Assembly (NCBI RefSeq): GCF_000304355.2
Contig: NC_018227.2
Span: forward strand, 310,001 to 374,000
Origin: Methanoculleus bourgensis MS2
GTDB lineage: Archaea; Halobacteriota; Methanomicrobia; Methanomicrobiales; Methanoculleaceae
Direction: 5' to 3'
DNA: 64,000 bases
Made by a program: the position numbers and the translations under genes
The notes under the pieces: model-generated
Told to the model about the DNA's origin: nothing
Database searches by the model: none
Seen by the model: the letters and a program-made list of their open reading frames with translations, nothing else
Shown: positions 29,644 to 36,087 of the stretch, piece by piece
Position numbering within the stretch: the stretch's first letter is position 1
Layout: each line of letters begins with the position of its first letter

Positions 29644-29973
29644 ATGAGAGCAGATATATTCGACCAGCGCAAAACCATAACGATCGAATCCGGGGGTATT
29701 ATCATTTCCGATACAACGCAATTCATCGTATATACACTAGAATTCTGCCCGAATTGCGAAATTCTCAAAGAGTTCCTGGCCTCCAGGGGTGTCCCCTTTG
29801 TCGAGTGCGACATGGCGTCCGCCGAGGCGCTGACGGAACTCCGCATGAACGGCATATTCGTCCAGGAAGCGCCGGTGCTGCAGAAAGGTGACGCGTTCTA
29901 TACGTCCGGCGATCTCTTTGCCGGCGGCGCGTTCCAGGAAGACCTTGTCGCTGACCTGATCGCGGGGGCATGA
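29644..29973 (+). CDS. Glutaredoxin-like (NrdH-type) redoxin
   Basis: A 109-residue thioredoxin-fold protein with a Cys35-Pro-Asn-Cys38 redox centre (YTLEFCPNCEILKEFL), the cis-Pro loop EAPVLQKGDAFY and a C-terminal helix. The first 22 residues are an extension, and the true start may be later. It overlaps nrdD by 4 bases (ATGA), so it is almost certainly the thiol reductant for this ribonucleotide reductase. That fits class III reductases of the subtype that take electrons from a redoxin instead of formate. It is the first gene of the operon. Confidence 0.88.
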   Translation: MRADIFDQRKTITIESGGIIISDTTQFIVYTLEFCPNCEILKEFLASRGVPFVECDMASAEALTELRMNGIFVQEAPVLQKGDAFYTSGDLFAGGAFQEDLVADLIAGA

Positions 29974-32900
29974 GGTTGGCCCGCAAGTCAACGCAGACGA
30001 CTATATTTGGGGAATTCGTCCCCGTCCTCCCCAAAGTCCGGACATCGCGGGGGTACCTTCTCGACTGGGACAGGAACCGGATCGTCAGGCAGATCATGGA
30101 GGAGAGCCGGCTGGTCGAGGTCTTCTACGGCTACGAAGGGGCCGATGAGGAGACTGCACAGGATATCGCTCGAAGGGTCGAGAAGAAGATCCAGATGCTG
30201 GGCCTTCAGTCGCTCTCAGGCCCGCTGATCCGCGAGATCGTCAACATGACGCTCCTCGAGCGCGGGCTTACGTCCTACCGCAACGTCTGCACGCGGGTGG
30301 GAACCCCGGTCTTTGACGCGCACCTCATCGATGTGGGGAGGGGATTTGAGGCCCACGACAACGCCAACCTCCAGGAGAACGCTGAGACGTCGCACAAGAA
30401 GAAGGCCGACAAGATCAGCAAGGAGCAGTACCTCCTGCAGCTCCCCCCGGACCTTGCGGACCACCACCTCCGCGGTGACCTCCATATCCACGACCTGGAA
30501 TACTTTGGGACAAGACCGTTCTGTATTGACGGGAGCACGGCCATACCTGTACGGACGGACAACCGCATCTGCAGTATCCTCCCTGCAGAACTCCCGTTCA
30601 CCGGCGAGGAATGGCGCCCAGAGGACCTCTCCGCGTTCACACCAAAGGGCTGGAGGCGGGTTAGCAAGGTGACCCGCCGGCGGGTGAACCCGGGCGAGAT
30701 GATCCGGATCCGGACGTCGAGCGGACGGTCGCTCTCGGTCACCGGCGAGCACCGGATTCCGGTGCAAACCAGGGACGGTATGGCCATCCGCCGTGCCGAT
30801 GAGGTATGCGCCGGAGATACGCTTTATGGGATCCCGAGGACCGACGCCATCCGCGGGGAGACGATAGAGGCGATCGATCTCATCCGGGAACTGCCTGCAT
30901 CGGTCCCGGCCCACCTCCTTGAAAACGTCTACGTCCGCGGTGCCGAAGAGATCTTTGCTAATGTGGTGCGGACCGGAAAGGCTGCCTCATACGCCGATAT
31001 CTCCCGGGCGCTCGGCGTCGAGCACCAGAAGCAGTGGTATACCCGCGGGATTATGCCGGTTGCTCTCTTTGCAGCCTTCTCGCGCCGCTATGGCATCCGG
31101 GATTATGATCAGGTCACCATCGGCGTCACCGGGAGCGGAAACGAACTGCCTGCTCTCTTCACGCTTACGCCGGAACTCATTCGCCTTCTTGGGTTCTTCG
31201 TTGCCGAAGGCAACTACAACGCATCGCTCGAGGCCGGGCAGTACAACCTGGCAATCACAGAGAACGCCCTAGCGCCCGCGATCCAGGCAGCGGCATGCAC
31301 AAGCCCAAACACCTACGCAACACTCACCGGAGGCACCCCCGACACCACGACCATCTACGGGGTCGAAGTGGAGCGTAACCGGGCCCTGCAGGTCTACTTC
31401 GGGGGAAAACTCGTCTACCTGATCTTCCGCTACGTCTTCGGCATTCCGGAGGGAGCGGCCGGAAAACGCCTCCCCTGGCTTGTCTACCATCTTGACGACG
31501 TGCTCCTCCATGAGTTCCTCTCCGCTCTCTTCACCGGGGACGGTTCTGCGTACTACCGCCCCGAGAAGTCGGATTGCATCGTCAACTACACCACCACCTC
31601 CCCGGCGCTCCGGCAGGAACTCTCGCTCCTGCTCACCGCGCTCGGGATCACCCCCCACATCGTCGAACTCTATAGCGAGGAAGAACGGCCGACACTCTAC
31701 CGGCTCCAGTTCACCGGGCGCAAGAATATCGAGACGTTTGCCCGGTATGCCACATTCCTTGATCAGAGGCAGGACCATATCGACGGTTTCCTCTCTGCGG
31801 TCAAGGAGGGGCGGGGCCGGGAGCGGGAAGAGACTGTTGTCGAGACCTCACCGACAGAGCCTACCGGCGAGTACGTCTACGACTTCTTCCTCGCCGGCGA
31901 CGGGACCGAGGAGAGCCATACGTTCTATGCCTCCGACGGCCTGCTCATCCACAACTGCCAGGATTGGGACCTCCGTTACTTCTTCTACTACGGCCTGATG
32001 CCCGACGGCAACGGGACGAAGGCATCGGTCGCCGGCCCGGCGAAGAGGGCTGAGGTGGCGGTCCTCCACGCGGTCAAGGCGCTCGGCTCAGCCCAGACGA
32101 ACTTCGCCGGCGGCCAGGGCTACTACAACTTCCTGACGTTCATGGCCCCATTCTTCGAGGGGATGGACTACGAAGAGATCAAGCAGCTGATGCAGATGTT
32201 CGTCTACGAGATGACCCAGATGATGGTCGCCCGGGGCGGTCAGGTCGTCTTCTCGTCGGTCCAGCTCTCCCCCGGTGTCCCCACCCTCTGGAAGGACAAG
32301 CCCTGTGTCTACCGCGGCAAGGTCTGGGACGGGAAGCAGGCGCCGCTCCGGACCTACGGCGAGTTCGAGCGGGAGGTTCGGCTCCTCTTCAAGGCGCTGA
32401 TGGAGGTCATGCTCGAGGGGGACTACTGGGGCAAGCCTTTCTCCTTCCCGAAACCCGAGATCAGCATCGAGCCCGACTTCCTCACCGAGAACGAGGAGTT
32501 CAACCGGGAGCACCCCGACCTCCCGACCTACCACGACCTCTACCTGATGACCTTTGAGCTCGCGTCCAAATACGGCACCCCCTACTATGACAACCAGATC
32601 CCACCCTACCGGGGCGCCGGAGAGGGGATCTCGTGCTACCAGTGCCTCGCGGGCGACGAACTGGTCCCGGTGGCTGACAGCGACGGGAGGATCATCGTCA
32701 GGGCGATCAGCGACCTCTTCGATGCTGCGGCAAAGAACGGGAGACGGATCGACTCCTTCGGCACGGAGCTTGCTTACTATGACGGTAAGGCCCCGAGCGT
32801 CGACTTCACGACCCTGGAGGCGTCGCTTCGCCCGTTCCACGGCGTGATGCGGCAGCGGTATATGGGGGACCTCCTCAGGATCACCCTCGAGTCAGGCCGG

Positions 32901-34976
32901 CAGATCACCGTCACGCCCGACCACCCGGTGTACGTCCTGAACGGCGGGAGGTTTGTCAGGGAGACGGCAGGCGATCTCGAGCCCGGCGACTACCTGCCGG
33001 TGATGAAGGCCGGCGGGTTCTCCGAGACGCAGGTCGCCGGGATCGATGTCGCGGAGGTCATCGCCGGGGCAGGCTACGCCGACCAGATCCAGGTCACCGA
33101 AGACGGAGTGAAGACCCGTGGCGCCCGGCGTCCCGGCCTGCCCCGCACCCTCCTGGTCAGCCGCGACCTCGCAGCGTTCCTCGGTTACTACCTTGCGGCA
33201 GGGTCAAGCGACCACTCCGGGCGGCGGTATACGGTCAGGCTCTCCTTTGCGGGGCGCGAGGCCGGTCTTGCGGCGGACGCAGCCGCCTGCATCCGCACCG
33301 TCCTCGGGTATGAGCCGAAGGTCAGCGAGTCTGCCGCGGGGACCGAGGTCGTCGTCAGGAGCAAACTCATCTACCTGCTAATCGACGCACTCGGGTGCGG
33401 CTCCTCCGCTGGCGAGCGATCGGTGCCCGACCTCCTCTTCAACATCGACCGCACCCTGGTCGGCGACTACCTCGGCGCTGCCTTCCGCGCCGGAGGGAGG
33501 GGGACCTCCAGGCGCCGTGCCCGGAGCATCAGGCTGAAGACGGCCTCCCCGGACGCTGCCCGGAGACTGGTCTGGCTGGCAGGGGAGATCGGCGTCCAGA
33601 TGAGTTACGCCGAGCGGGAGGCGACGGTCCGGAGGGTCGATGCCCCCGAGAAGGCCTACATCTGCAGGATCACGGCCCAGGACCAGATCGACCGGTTCCA
33701 CGCAGAGACCGGGTACAGCGCCGAGGTGCCTCTGGGAAGGGAGACCGGCGGGGCCTTCACGCACCTCCCGGAGAGCGGGCAGGCTTTTGGGTGCACCGCC
33801 CTCGCGTGCGCCGGCAGGTACAGCGCCGGCGAGCTTGAGGGGATTCAGGTCTCGCTCTTCCTCCCGCCCGCCGCCGCTCAGATCACCCGGGGCGACGTCC
33901 ACCCGCTCCGTATCCGCTCGATCGAGCCGGTGCCATGCGACGACGGCTACGTCTACGACCTCGTCGATGTCGCCGGGACCCATACCTTCGCAAACGCGCT
34001 CGGCATCGTAACCGGGAACTGTTGCGCCTACCAGTTCTCGTCGCTTGCAAACGAGGACGACGAGTTTGAGGACAAACTCTACTTCCGGGAGGGGAAGCAC
34101 TTCTCGATGGGTTCCTGGCAGGTGATGTCCATCAACTGCCCGCGGGCGGCATATAAGGCGGAGGGCGACCAGGAACGGCTCTTTGCCGAACTGAAGGCGC
34201 TCATGGACACCGCCGTCGAGCTCTACCGCATCAAGCGGCGCTGGATGTCGCTGATCCGGACAAACGGGCGGATGCCGTTTGCCATGCAGCGCCCGAAGGA
34301 CCCGAACACCGGCGAGCGCGGCGCGGTCGCCGTTGACCTCGAGGGGCTCGTCTACACCATCGGCGTGGTCGGGGTCAACGAGATGGTCCAGCACTTCACC
34401 GGCCATCAGCTCCACGAGTCGAAGGATGCGTTCCGCCTCGCCGTCCGGGCCATGACGGAACTCGAGATGTACGCCCGTGAACTCTCGGCGAAGCACAACA
34501 TGACGATCGCGCTTGCCCGCACCCCGGCGGAGACGACCGGCCAGCGGTTCGCGGTCGCCGACCTCCTCGACGAGCGGTTCCGGGACCACGCGATCAAGGT
34601 CATCAAGGGCGACGCTGATGCGGCGCTCGATATGCTCGGCACGACGCTTGACCTCCCCATCTACTACACGAACGGGACCCATGTCACCCCGGCGGCCCCG
34701 GTCCCGCTCACGAAGCGGATCGAGATCGAGCACGTCTTCTTCCCGATCGTGGACGGCGGGAACATCTTCCACATCTGGCTTGGGGAGGCGCGGCCTGACC
34801 CCAGGGGGCTGATGGAGATGGCGATGAACCTCTGCCGGACGACCCAGATCGGCTACTTCGCCTTCACCCGGGATCTCACGGTCTCCCTCAAGGAGTACCG
34901 GGAGCTCAGGCCGAGGCATGAGGAGCCCGGGAAGGCGGCCGGAACGTCCCCGGCGGCAGACCGGGCGGACGCCTGA
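29970..34976 (+). CDS. nrdD: Anaerobic ribonucleoside-triphosphate reductase NrdD with two inteins
   Basis: The precursor is 1668 residues and the spliced protein is 731. The exteins are residues 1-184, 663-891 and 1351-1668. The +1 residue after each intein is Cys: CQDWDLRYF follows intein 1, and SCYQ-CCAYQF is formed across intein 2. Splicing therefore rebuilds active-site strands, including a three-cysteine cluster suited to a redoxin reductant. The N-terminal part (residues 1-120) is an allosteric-type region. The extein ends FTRDLTVSLKEYRELR and then a Pro/Ala/Glu tail. The zinc ribbon and the R-V-x-G-Y glycyl-radical motif expected there are absent, and no frameshifted copy lies downstream. 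NrdG is not in the window. An oligo-T terminator follows. Confidence 0.93.
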   Translation: MRLARKSTQTTIFGEFVPVLPKVRTSRGYLLDWDRNRIVRQIMEESRLVEVFYGYEGADEETAQDIARRVEKKIQMLGLQSLSGPLIREIVNMTLLERGLTSYRNVCTRVGTPVFDAHLIDVGRGFEAHDNANLQENAETSHKKKADKISKEQYLLQLPPDLADHHLRGDLHIHDLEYFGTRPFCIDGSTAIPVRTDNRICSILPAELPFTGEEWRPEDLSAFTPKGWRRVSKVTRRRVNPGEMIRIRTSSGRSLSVTGEHRIPVQTRDGMAIRRADEVCAGDTLYGIPRTDAIRGETIEAIDLIRELPASVPAHLLENVYVRGAEEIFANVVRTGKAASYADISRALGVEHQKQWYTRGIMPVALFAAFSRRYGIRDYDQVTIGVTGSGNELPALFTLTPELIRLLGFFVAEGNYNASLEAGQYNLAITENALAPAIQAAACTSPNTYATLTGGTPDTTTIYGVEVERNRALQVYFGGKLVYLIFRYVFGIPEGAAGKRLPWLVYHLDDVLLHEFLSALFTGDGSAYYRPEKSDCIVNYTTTSPALRQELSLLLTALGITPHIVELYSEEERPTLYRLQFTGRKNIETFARYATFLDQRQDHIDGFLSAVKEGRGREREETVVETSPTEPTGEYVYDFFLAGDGTEESHTFYASDGLLIHNCQDWDLRYFFYYGLMPDGNGTKASVAGPAKRAEVAVLHAVKALGSAQTNFAGGQGYYNFLTFMAPFFEGMDYEEIKQLMQMFVYEMTQMMVARGGQVVFSSVQLSPGVPTLWKDKPCVYRGKVWDGKQAPLRTYGEFEREVRLLFKALMEVMLEGDYWGKPFSFPKPEISIEPDFLTENEEFNREHPDLPTYHDLYLMTFELASKYGTPYYDNQIPPYRGAGEGISCYQCLAGDELVPVADSDGRIIVRAISDLFDAAAKNGRRIDSFGTELAYYDGKAPSVDFTTLEASLRPFHGVMRQRYMGDLLRITLESGRQITVTPDHPVYVLNGGRFVRETAGDLEPGDYLPVMKAGGFSETQVAGIDVAEVIAGAGYADQIQVTEDGVKTRGARRPGLPRTLLVSRDLAAFLGYYLAAGSSDHSGRRYTVRLSFAGREAGLAADAAACIRTVLGYEPKVSESAAGTEVVVRSKLIYLLIDALGCGSSAGERSVPDLLFNIDRTLVGDYLGAAFRAGGRGTSRRRARSIRLKTASPDAARRLVWLAGEIGVQMSYAEREATVRRVDAPEKAYICRITAQDQIDRFHAETGYSAEVPLGRETGGAFTHLPESGQAFGCTALACAGRYSAGELEGIQVSLFLPPAAAQITRGDVHPLRIRSIEPVPCDDGYVYDLVDVAGTHTFANALGIVTGNCCAYQFSSLANEDDEFEDKLYFREGKHFSMGSWQVMSINCPRAAYKAEGDQERLFAELKALMDTAVELYRIKRRWMSLIRTNGRMPFAMQRPKDPNTGERGAVAVDLEGLVYTIGVVGVNEMVQHFTGHQLHESKDAFRLAVRAMTELEMYARELSAKHNMTIALARTPAETTGQRFAVADLLDERFRDHAIKVIKGDADAALDMLGTTLDLPIYYTNGTHVTPAAPVPLTKRIEIEHVFFPIVDGGNIFHIWLGEARPDPRGLMEMAMNLCRTTQIGYFAFTRDLTVSLKEYRELRPRHEEPGKAAGTSPAADRADA
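30522..31955 (+). mobile_element. Intein 1 of NrdD, with LAGLIDADG endonuclease
   Basis: 478 residues, precursor 185-662. It begins CIDGSTAIPV. Block B is SVTGEHRIPV, and the C-terminal block ends GLLIHN with the canonical His-Asn before extein Cys. Both LAGLIDADG helices are present with their acidic residues (LLGFFVAEGN and FLSALFTGDGS), so the homing endonuclease looks intact. Confidence 0.95.
32643..34019 (+). mobile_element. Intein 2 of NrdD, endonuclease degenerate
   Basis: 459 residues, precursor 892-1350. It begins CLAGDELVPV, Block B is TVTPDHPVYV, and it ends GIVTGN before extein Cys. The residue before the terminal Asn is Gly, not the usual His. Both LAGLIDADG motifs have lost their acidic residues (FLGYYLAAGS and YLGAAFRAGGRG), so the endonuclease should be dead although splicing motifs remain. 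Confidence 0.93.
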
Positions 34977-35055: not shown

Positions 35056-36087
35056 ATGATCGATCTCAAGACTCCACTCCTGGCGATCGACGTCGGCAGG
35101 GGCACCCAGGATATCCTGGTCTACGAGCCCGGCCGGCCGATCGAGAACAGCATCAAACTGGTCCTCCCCTCCCCGACCGTGGTGGCGGCTGAGCGAATCC
35201 AGCAGGCGACCAGGGCCGGGCGCCCGGTCTTCCTGGACGGGTTCCTGATGGGCGGCGGCGCGAACACCGGCGCGATACGAAAGCACCTTGCCCAGGGTCT
35301 CCCGGTCTACGCCACGCCCGGGGCCGCCGGAACCCTCCACGACGATCTTGAGCGTGTGCGGGCGATGGGGGTTGAGATCCGGGCCACCGCTCCCGATGAC
35401 GCGGTGACCGTCCATACCACCGACTACATGGAGCCTGAGATCAGGAAAGCGCTCTCCCTCTTCGGCGTCGAGTACCCGGAGAACGTCGCGGTCGCGGTCC
35501 AGGACCACGGCTACTCGCCGCACCGGAGCAACCGTATCCACCGGTTCGAACTGATGCGCGAGCAGCTGGATGCCGGGGACTGGGACCTCCTCTCGCTCGT
35601 CGCTGACCCCCCGCTTGCTGATATGACCAGGATGCAGGCGGTCCGGCGGCAGGCGCCGGGGGCGCTCGTCACCGATACCGGGCCGGTCGCGCTCATCGGG
35701 GCGCTCTGCGATGCGAGGGTGCGGCAGCGGGCGAAGGAGGGGATCATCCTCGTCAACGCCGGGAACGGTCACACACTCTGCTTCGCCCTGAAGGGCCGCG
35801 AGATCTACGGGCTCTTCGAGCACCATACCGGCTCGCTCGACCCGAAACGACTGCAGCACTATATCTGGAAGCTCGCCGATGGCACGCTGACGTCAGAAGA
35901 GGTCTTTGATGACGGCGGCCATGGGGCGGCGGTCAGGAAGCCGCTCGTCACCGATACCGTGGTCATCACGGGTCCAAACCGGCTCCGGCTGATGCCGGAG
36001 GCCTACCAGGCGGCGCCCTTCGGAGACATGATGCTCTCGGGGTGCTTTGGGCTCGCGTACCTCTGGAGGGTGTTCCGGGAGCGGTGA
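35056..36087 (+). CDS. DUF1786-family protein, ASKHA-like
   Basis: A 343-residue protein of the DUF1786 family, seen mainly in methanogens and some bacteria. LLAIDVGRGTQDILVY at the N terminus and ILVNAGNGHTLCFAL near residue 235 resemble the phosphate-binding loops of actin/Hsp70/sugar-kinase folds, so ATP binding is likely. Databases carry an unsupported label, pyruvate formate-lyase activating enzyme, for this family; I see no radical-SAM CxxxCxxC motif. GAGGTAATCC precedes the ATG. It lies 80 bases after nrdD, past an oligo-T, on the same strand. A link with ribonucleotide reduction is possible but unproven. Confidence 0.85.
   Translation: MIDLKTPLLAIDVGRGTQDILVYEPGRPIENSIKLVLPSPTVVAAERIQQATRAGRPVFLDGFLMGGGANTGAIRKHLAQGLPVYATPGAAGTLHDDLERVRAMGVEIRATAPDDAVTVHTTDYMEPEIRKALSLFGVEYPENVAVAVQDHGYSPHRSNRIHRFELMREQLDAGDWDLLSLVADPPLADMTRMQAVRRQAPGALVTDTGPVALIGALCDARVRQRAKEGIILVNAGNGHTLCFALKGREIYGLFEHHTGSLDPKRLQHYIWKLADGTLTSEEVFDDGGHGAAVRKPLVTDTVVITGPNRLRLMPEAYQAAPFGDMMLSGCFGLAYLWRVFRER

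Follow-up and report, generated by a model that had tools for sequence, protein, structure and literature searches.

The window analysed here, a stretch of 64,000 nucleotides from Methanoculleus bourgensis MS2 (C1:310001-374000), contains a gene for NrdD, the catalytic subunit of a class III ribonucleotide reductase (RNR), whose product ends before the glycyl-radical domain. In the common view of glycyl-radical enzymes, a single chain carries its own radical, and the question raised by this locus is where the radical of such an enzyme would reside. The first-pass annotation had left two answers, namely a radical domain encoded as a separate protein or a different mechanism. The features considered are collected in Table 1.

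Table 1. Coordinates of the nrdD locus and of associated genes (positions in the window unless a contig is named)
Feature	Position	Strand	Remarks
Glutaredoxin-like protein, NrdH type, CPNC	29644..29973	+	PF00462 23.0 bits; overlaps nrdD start
nrdD, class III ribonucleotide reductase catalytic subunit, precursor with two inteins, no glycyl-radical domain	29970..34976	+	ORF 1668 aa
Extein 1: weak ATP-cone match and barrel start	29970..30521	+	
Intein 1, 478 aa, LAGLIDADG-like domain	30522..31955	+	
Extein 2, barrel, last residues ...GISCYQ	31956..32642	+	
Intein 2, 459 aa	32643..34019	+	
Extein 3, runs to FTRDLTV = last conserved barrel strand	34020..34883	+	
Truncation point and unconserved tail	34884..34973	+	
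grd, stand-alone glycyl-radical domain (GRD) protein	C1:2665966-2666328 (L003:1315-1677)		120 aa
NrdG2 activase, own genome	C1:1323148-1323600	-	148.6-148.9 bits, above cut-off
Viral grd-nrdH-truncated nrdD clusters	L235:3929-6678; L242:3995-6521		

The reading frame matched the Pfam model NRDD (PF13597, 562 positions) with E=2e-124 in three segments (positions 1-60, 53-263 and 259-510) and NCBIfam TIGR02487 with 437 bits, above its cut-off, the latter match ending at position 529 of 581. NrdD families were matched and the class II models PF02867 and TIGR02504 were not (Pfam, NCBIfam), while the ATP-cone PF03477 in extein 1 stayed under its cut-off with 20.6 bits. The last 52 positions of PF13597, which comprise the zinc site, the glycyl loop and the tail, were missing, confirming the lack of a glycyl-radical end noticed in the first-pass annotation. 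The spliced extein was 731 aa long, with the C-terminus ...YFAFTRDLTVSLKEYRELRPRHEEPGKAAGTSPAADRADA. In full-length NrdDs from other families of the same phylum the chain runs on into CxxC...SRVTGY...GWN; here S702 occupied the column of their first zinc cysteine (TVC) and was followed by about 29 variable residues. A cysteine was found in this column in 13% of truncated versus 100% of full-length NrdDs (31 and eight aligned, respectively). Downstream of 34976, no frame showed a zinc ribbon or an RVxGY motif before the next gene began at 35056, again as had been claimed. This next gene, immediately 3' of nrdD (35056-36087), encoded a DUF1786 protein ('putative pyruvate formate-lyase activating enzyme').

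Barrel cysteines C185, C411, C414, C415 and C453 were invariant in all 31 truncated and all eight full-length NrdDs. The +1 extein residue of intein 1 was C185, which aligned without gaps with Cys125 of Thermotoga maritima NrdD (4coi); T. maritima Cys125 and T4 Cys79 represent the conserved reductive cysteine of NrdD (PMC4493059). Likewise, the +1 extein residue of intein 2 was C414, within a CYQCC motif of the finger-loop region. Since both inteins sit directly before catalytic-looking cysteines, the enzyme probably stays inactive as long as either has yet to be removed by splicing. One or both inteins were missing from many relatives. Two further extein cysteines, C301 and C685, occurred in 94-100% of the truncated NrdDs but were missing from all eight full-length ones; C685, which lies near the truncation, could be part of a docking surface.

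A profile search of the complete 2.79-Mb genome detected the small ORF with zinc ribbon and RVxGY whose existence the first-pass annotation had suggested. This separate ORF covered NRDD profile positions 503-562 (E=2.1e-14), which is exactly what the window NrdD misses. Its product reads MNWSPEQ...RYKCHTCHFVVDETPCPHCGE...MCPLDHCDCHHSIVESIEYCPLCGHAVCPECGSHDVVQISRVTGYLQDVAGWNAGKQQELKDRTRYPVV. The second half is an ordinary NrdD radical domain with SRVTGY and the usual NrdD tail, residues 76-116 matching the Prevotella copri NrdD structure 8p23 (E=6e-8), while the first half, which resembles a zinc ribbon, is an addition that fused NrdDs do not have. A weak NRDD match elsewhere in the genome (C1:1431139-1431255, E=0.13) was dismissed as noise.

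Twelve putative metal ligands were recognised in the GRD protein (C29, C32, C41 and C44; C53, H57, C60 and H62; C71, C74, C79 and C82). All of them, together with R92-T94-G95-Y96 (R-V/I-T-G-Y), were invariant in 18 out of 18 diverse GRDs; H57 and a few other positions were slightly variable in a larger set (n=40). These 12 Cys and His residues would presumably bind metal. Within the order Methanomicrobiales, amino acids of the GRD were far better kept than fourfold-degenerate sites (75% versus 19% identity, L176). Only NRDD/NrdD models were significant among Pfam and NCBIfam, no family of the pyruvate formate-lyase (PFL) type being matched at E up to 1. The AlphaFold model of the GRD alone had a pLDDT of 62.6, with a moderately confident zinc-ribbon half and a glycyl loop below 50; Foldseek with this low-confidence model returned no match below E=1. 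A model of a viral truncated NrdD, computed from five input sequences, was unusable (pLDDT 53.6) and was set aside. By every sequence feature, except that its radical domain lies in a separate chain, the window NrdD is a class III RNR.

Within the cellular genome studied, grd and nrdD were far apart (about 468 kb across the record ends if the single contig is circular) and did not share an operon. The cellular grd block consisted of dys-like, pyrF, grd, cbiZ-like and rpa genes and was found in most of about 100 loci. The presence of inteins in the window NrdD might suggest that NrdD and GRD, once translated, become covalently linked into an ordinary NrdD, trans-splicing being one conceivable route. 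However, both inteins are internal and complete, many truncated relatives carry none, no splicing signature was found on the GRD (Pfam, E up to 1) nor was one visible at the NrdD tail, and at its N-terminus the GRD carries a zinc-ribbon-like part of its own that fused enzymes do not have. Such a covalent joining is thus considered highly improbable. The CbiZ-like gene downstream (L006:8326-9213), related to B12 salvage and displaying a C-terminal Cys-rich domain, overlapped the grd stop with its start in the majority of the order's loci; pyrF lay upstream of both. The supply of the class II (B12) enzyme and that of the class III RNR may be coupled.

The distribution of both genes was followed in 120 genomes of Methanomicrobiales, drawn evenly; relatives retrieved by name all belonged to this order or to assemblies labelled Euryarchaeota. 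A GRD encoded by its own gene, 61-93% identical to that of M. bourgensis, was found together with a truncated NrdD in 100 of the 120 genomes. NrdD alone and GRD alone were each encountered twice, mostly in incomplete assemblies, and both were missing from the remaining 16, all of which belong to genus g18. Co-occurrence gave a Fisher p of 7e-16, a value that overstates independence because the 16 genomes form one clade, whose joint absence of NrdD and GRD is probably one evolutionary event. The activase NrdG2 (TIGR02495) reached at least 129 bits in all pair-bearing genomes but three fragmented or lower-quality ones; its best score in the 16 g18 genomes was at most about 70 bits. One genome (G034) displayed two truncated nrdD genes 14 kb apart (C1:285076-286791 and 300796-302511) and a single grd.

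As nrdD and grd are unlinked in cells, where grd shares a conserved block with genes such as pyrF and the cbiZ-like one, it could be imagined that the GRD serves another enzyme and that no glycyl radical is needed by the truncated NrdD. This seems extremely unlikely in view of the absence of a PFL-like enzyme (PF02901) from all 120 genomes, with working controls, of the joint loss of grd, NrdD and NrdG2 from one genus and of the grd-nrdH-nrdD clusters in viral contigs. Nor did the different mechanism entertained in the first-pass annotation gain any support, the barrel cysteines being retained throughout and NrdG2 being present wherever the pair is, three poor assemblies excepted.

A sequencing error truncating this copy, also mentioned in that annotation, is ruled out by the 31 aligned truncated NrdDs of the order, all of which end at the same place. 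More generally, the catalytic NrdDs compared across the order ended alike at profile position 510-516, the exceptions being contig-edge fragments and one extra copy in G001. A broader version of this objection regards the truncated NrdD as dead or damaged, or its truncation as an artefact of sequencing or assembly. Decay would be conceivable insofar as the search for other RNR genes recovered a complete class II enzyme, the B12-dependent NrdJ, in the own genome (TIGR02504, 608 bits). It is refuted, however, by order-wide conservation, the same end recurring in about 100 genomes, and its probability is regarded as practically nil: catalytic cysteines are invariant, viral contigs hold the truncated form adjoining a GRD, and six genomes were found without any other detected RNR. 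A class I/II-type RNR was present in the own genome and in 109 others, but two models revealed none in G113, G047, G059, G077, G087 and G097. These six, each at least 90% complete and G113 being a single contig, all carried truncated NrdD, GRD and NrdG2, which makes the split enzyme the only RNR detected there. G018 was left out of this set, as it contained a weak class II RNR fragment. In the majority of genomes, which encode a class II RNR as well, it is not evident that the split enzyme is essential.

Contigs predicted as viral in IMG/VR brought the two genes together. Stand-alone GRDs were found in ten IMG/VR records, two of which (L240 and L241) were alike. In two of the contigs, L235 (127,665 bp) and L242 (135,061 bp), grd, nrdH and a truncated nrdD followed each other consecutively, and in L242 start and stop codons overlapped within this row. 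Both viral NrdDs likewise ended after YFAFT[RK]D.T. An NrdH-like glutaredoxin, which is a probable electron donor, also lies directly upstream of the window nrdD, as it does before the viral truncated nrdD. This side-by-side arrangement of grd, nrdH and nrdD is the decisive link between the two parts. No NrdD was found in the partial records of the seven or eight further viral GRD contigs. Four other viral records, two of them probably copies of one virus, displayed the radical domain in cis and no stand-alone GRD nearby. L194 was rejected as a stand-alone GRD, being a cis NrdD cut by the contig end. Phage records only gave partial matches (at most 67% of the query), none of which covered most of the GRD; where annotation exists, these fall under annotated full NrdDs.

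The radical domain proposed as a separate protein in the first-pass annotation is thus well supported by a 120-aa ORF that supplies the missing profile positions, occurs order-wide and stands beside viral truncated nrdD. Taking together the truncation, the separate gene, the order-wide co-occurrence, the viral adjacency, the kept barrel cysteines and the absence of PFL-type enzymes, the window NrdD and the small GRD protein very probably constitute a two-chain class III RNR with its radical on a separate subunit. NrdD would provide the 10-stranded barrel with the catalytic cysteines, and the small protein the zinc-bound glycyl-radical domain. NrdG2 and SAM would abstract a hydrogen from Gly95 (SRVTGY) of the small protein, either alone or once docked, in analogy to YfiD. 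Its loop would enter the open end of the NrdD barrel beside the finger-loop cysteines, where the glycyl radical could oxidise one of them (C411/C414/C415 region) and start nucleotide reduction, C185 and the NrdH-like glutaredoxin encoded upstream presumably handling and resupplying electrons. Docking, radical installation by NrdG2 and turnover are inferences by analogy with NrdD/NrdG and YfiD. YfiD acquires its radical only once it has bound to cleaved PFL (PMC8683613), and the same safety rule, a radical only after docking, may hold for the small GRD protein.

Compared with known systems, the proposed enzyme shares with class III NrdD/NrdG the barrel, the invariant active-site cysteines, a radical domain with zinc, RVTGY and GWNAGKQQELKDR, and an NrdG2 in the genome. 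It differs in that barrel and radical domain are two proteins and in that the GRD protein is extended at its N-terminus by a zinc-ribbon-like part contributing eight more invariant putative ligands. The PFL spare parts YfiD/GrcA and phage T4 Y06I offer another parallel, being small stand-alone glycyl-radical proteins for a larger barrel enzyme that are also found in viruses; only two such PFL spare parts have been validated, others being possible (PMC8683613). In contrast to YfiD/GrcA, the GRD is of NrdD type and would replace the domain permanently in this order instead of repairing damage. In the split class II RNR NrdJa/NrdJb of Pseudomonas aeruginosa an RNR is also divided over two gene products, but class II enzymes use adenosylcobalamin and NrdJb has other C-terminal domains (PMC9669993; PMC4520616). 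No description of a split or truncated NrdD was found in the accessible literature, and a mention in subscription papers is possible.

The whole order appears to run an essential enzyme type whose radical sits on a separate protein. Should this be confirmed, nature would have provided a setup for examining the installation of the radical, docking and radical transfer on individual parts. It would also explain how replacement of a 14-kDa piece could restore an enzyme cut by oxygen, and would suggest that viruses exploit this.

Outside the order, the radical domain was found in cis in NrdDs of about 760-820 aa. A full-length NrdD was accompanied by an additional stand-alone GRD in family f8 (nine of 11 genomes of genus g55, one of g40 and one of g63), while two genomes of family f24 also combined a stand-alone GRD with a full-length NrdD. 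A role in repairing oxygen-cleaved NrdD, like that of YfiD for PFL, would fit these families and has a precedent in YfiD/Y06I (PMC8683613). As the main function of the GRD in place of a permanent subunit it is nevertheless very unlikely: Methanomicrobiales encode no intact NrdD, except for the extra copy in G001, the only genome of the order with an additional full-length NrdD (569 aa). There is hence nothing to repair, and the small protein would have to act in every molecule.

Truncated NrdDs formed one clade (SH-aLRT 100), so that the built-in radical domain was probably lost a single time in cells. The GRD profile of the order aligned to the g55 proteins over residues 16-119, versus 76-118 for most cis domains, which suggests a resemblance among stand-alone proteins that extends beyond the radical loop. 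In a GRD tree of 46 core columns, stand-alone GRDs were placed on one side of the best tree with weak support (35/87); including flanking columns produced a strong split (100/99), the stand-alone and cis kinds differing in the make-up of their flanks. A common origin of all stand-alone GRDs seems likely from these comparisons. Tentatively, the stand-alone GRD might be an ancient exchangeable radical subunit that was first a spare part beside full-length NrdD and then made the built-in domain dispensable in Methanomicrobiales, viruses of these archaea carrying it, in many cases with no NrdD, so as to recharge the reductase of the host or take it over. In one genome of genus g63 (G173, L186:4034-7002) the GRD copy was degenerate after RVTGY and lay just upstream of a class II RNR-like gene of 799 aa.
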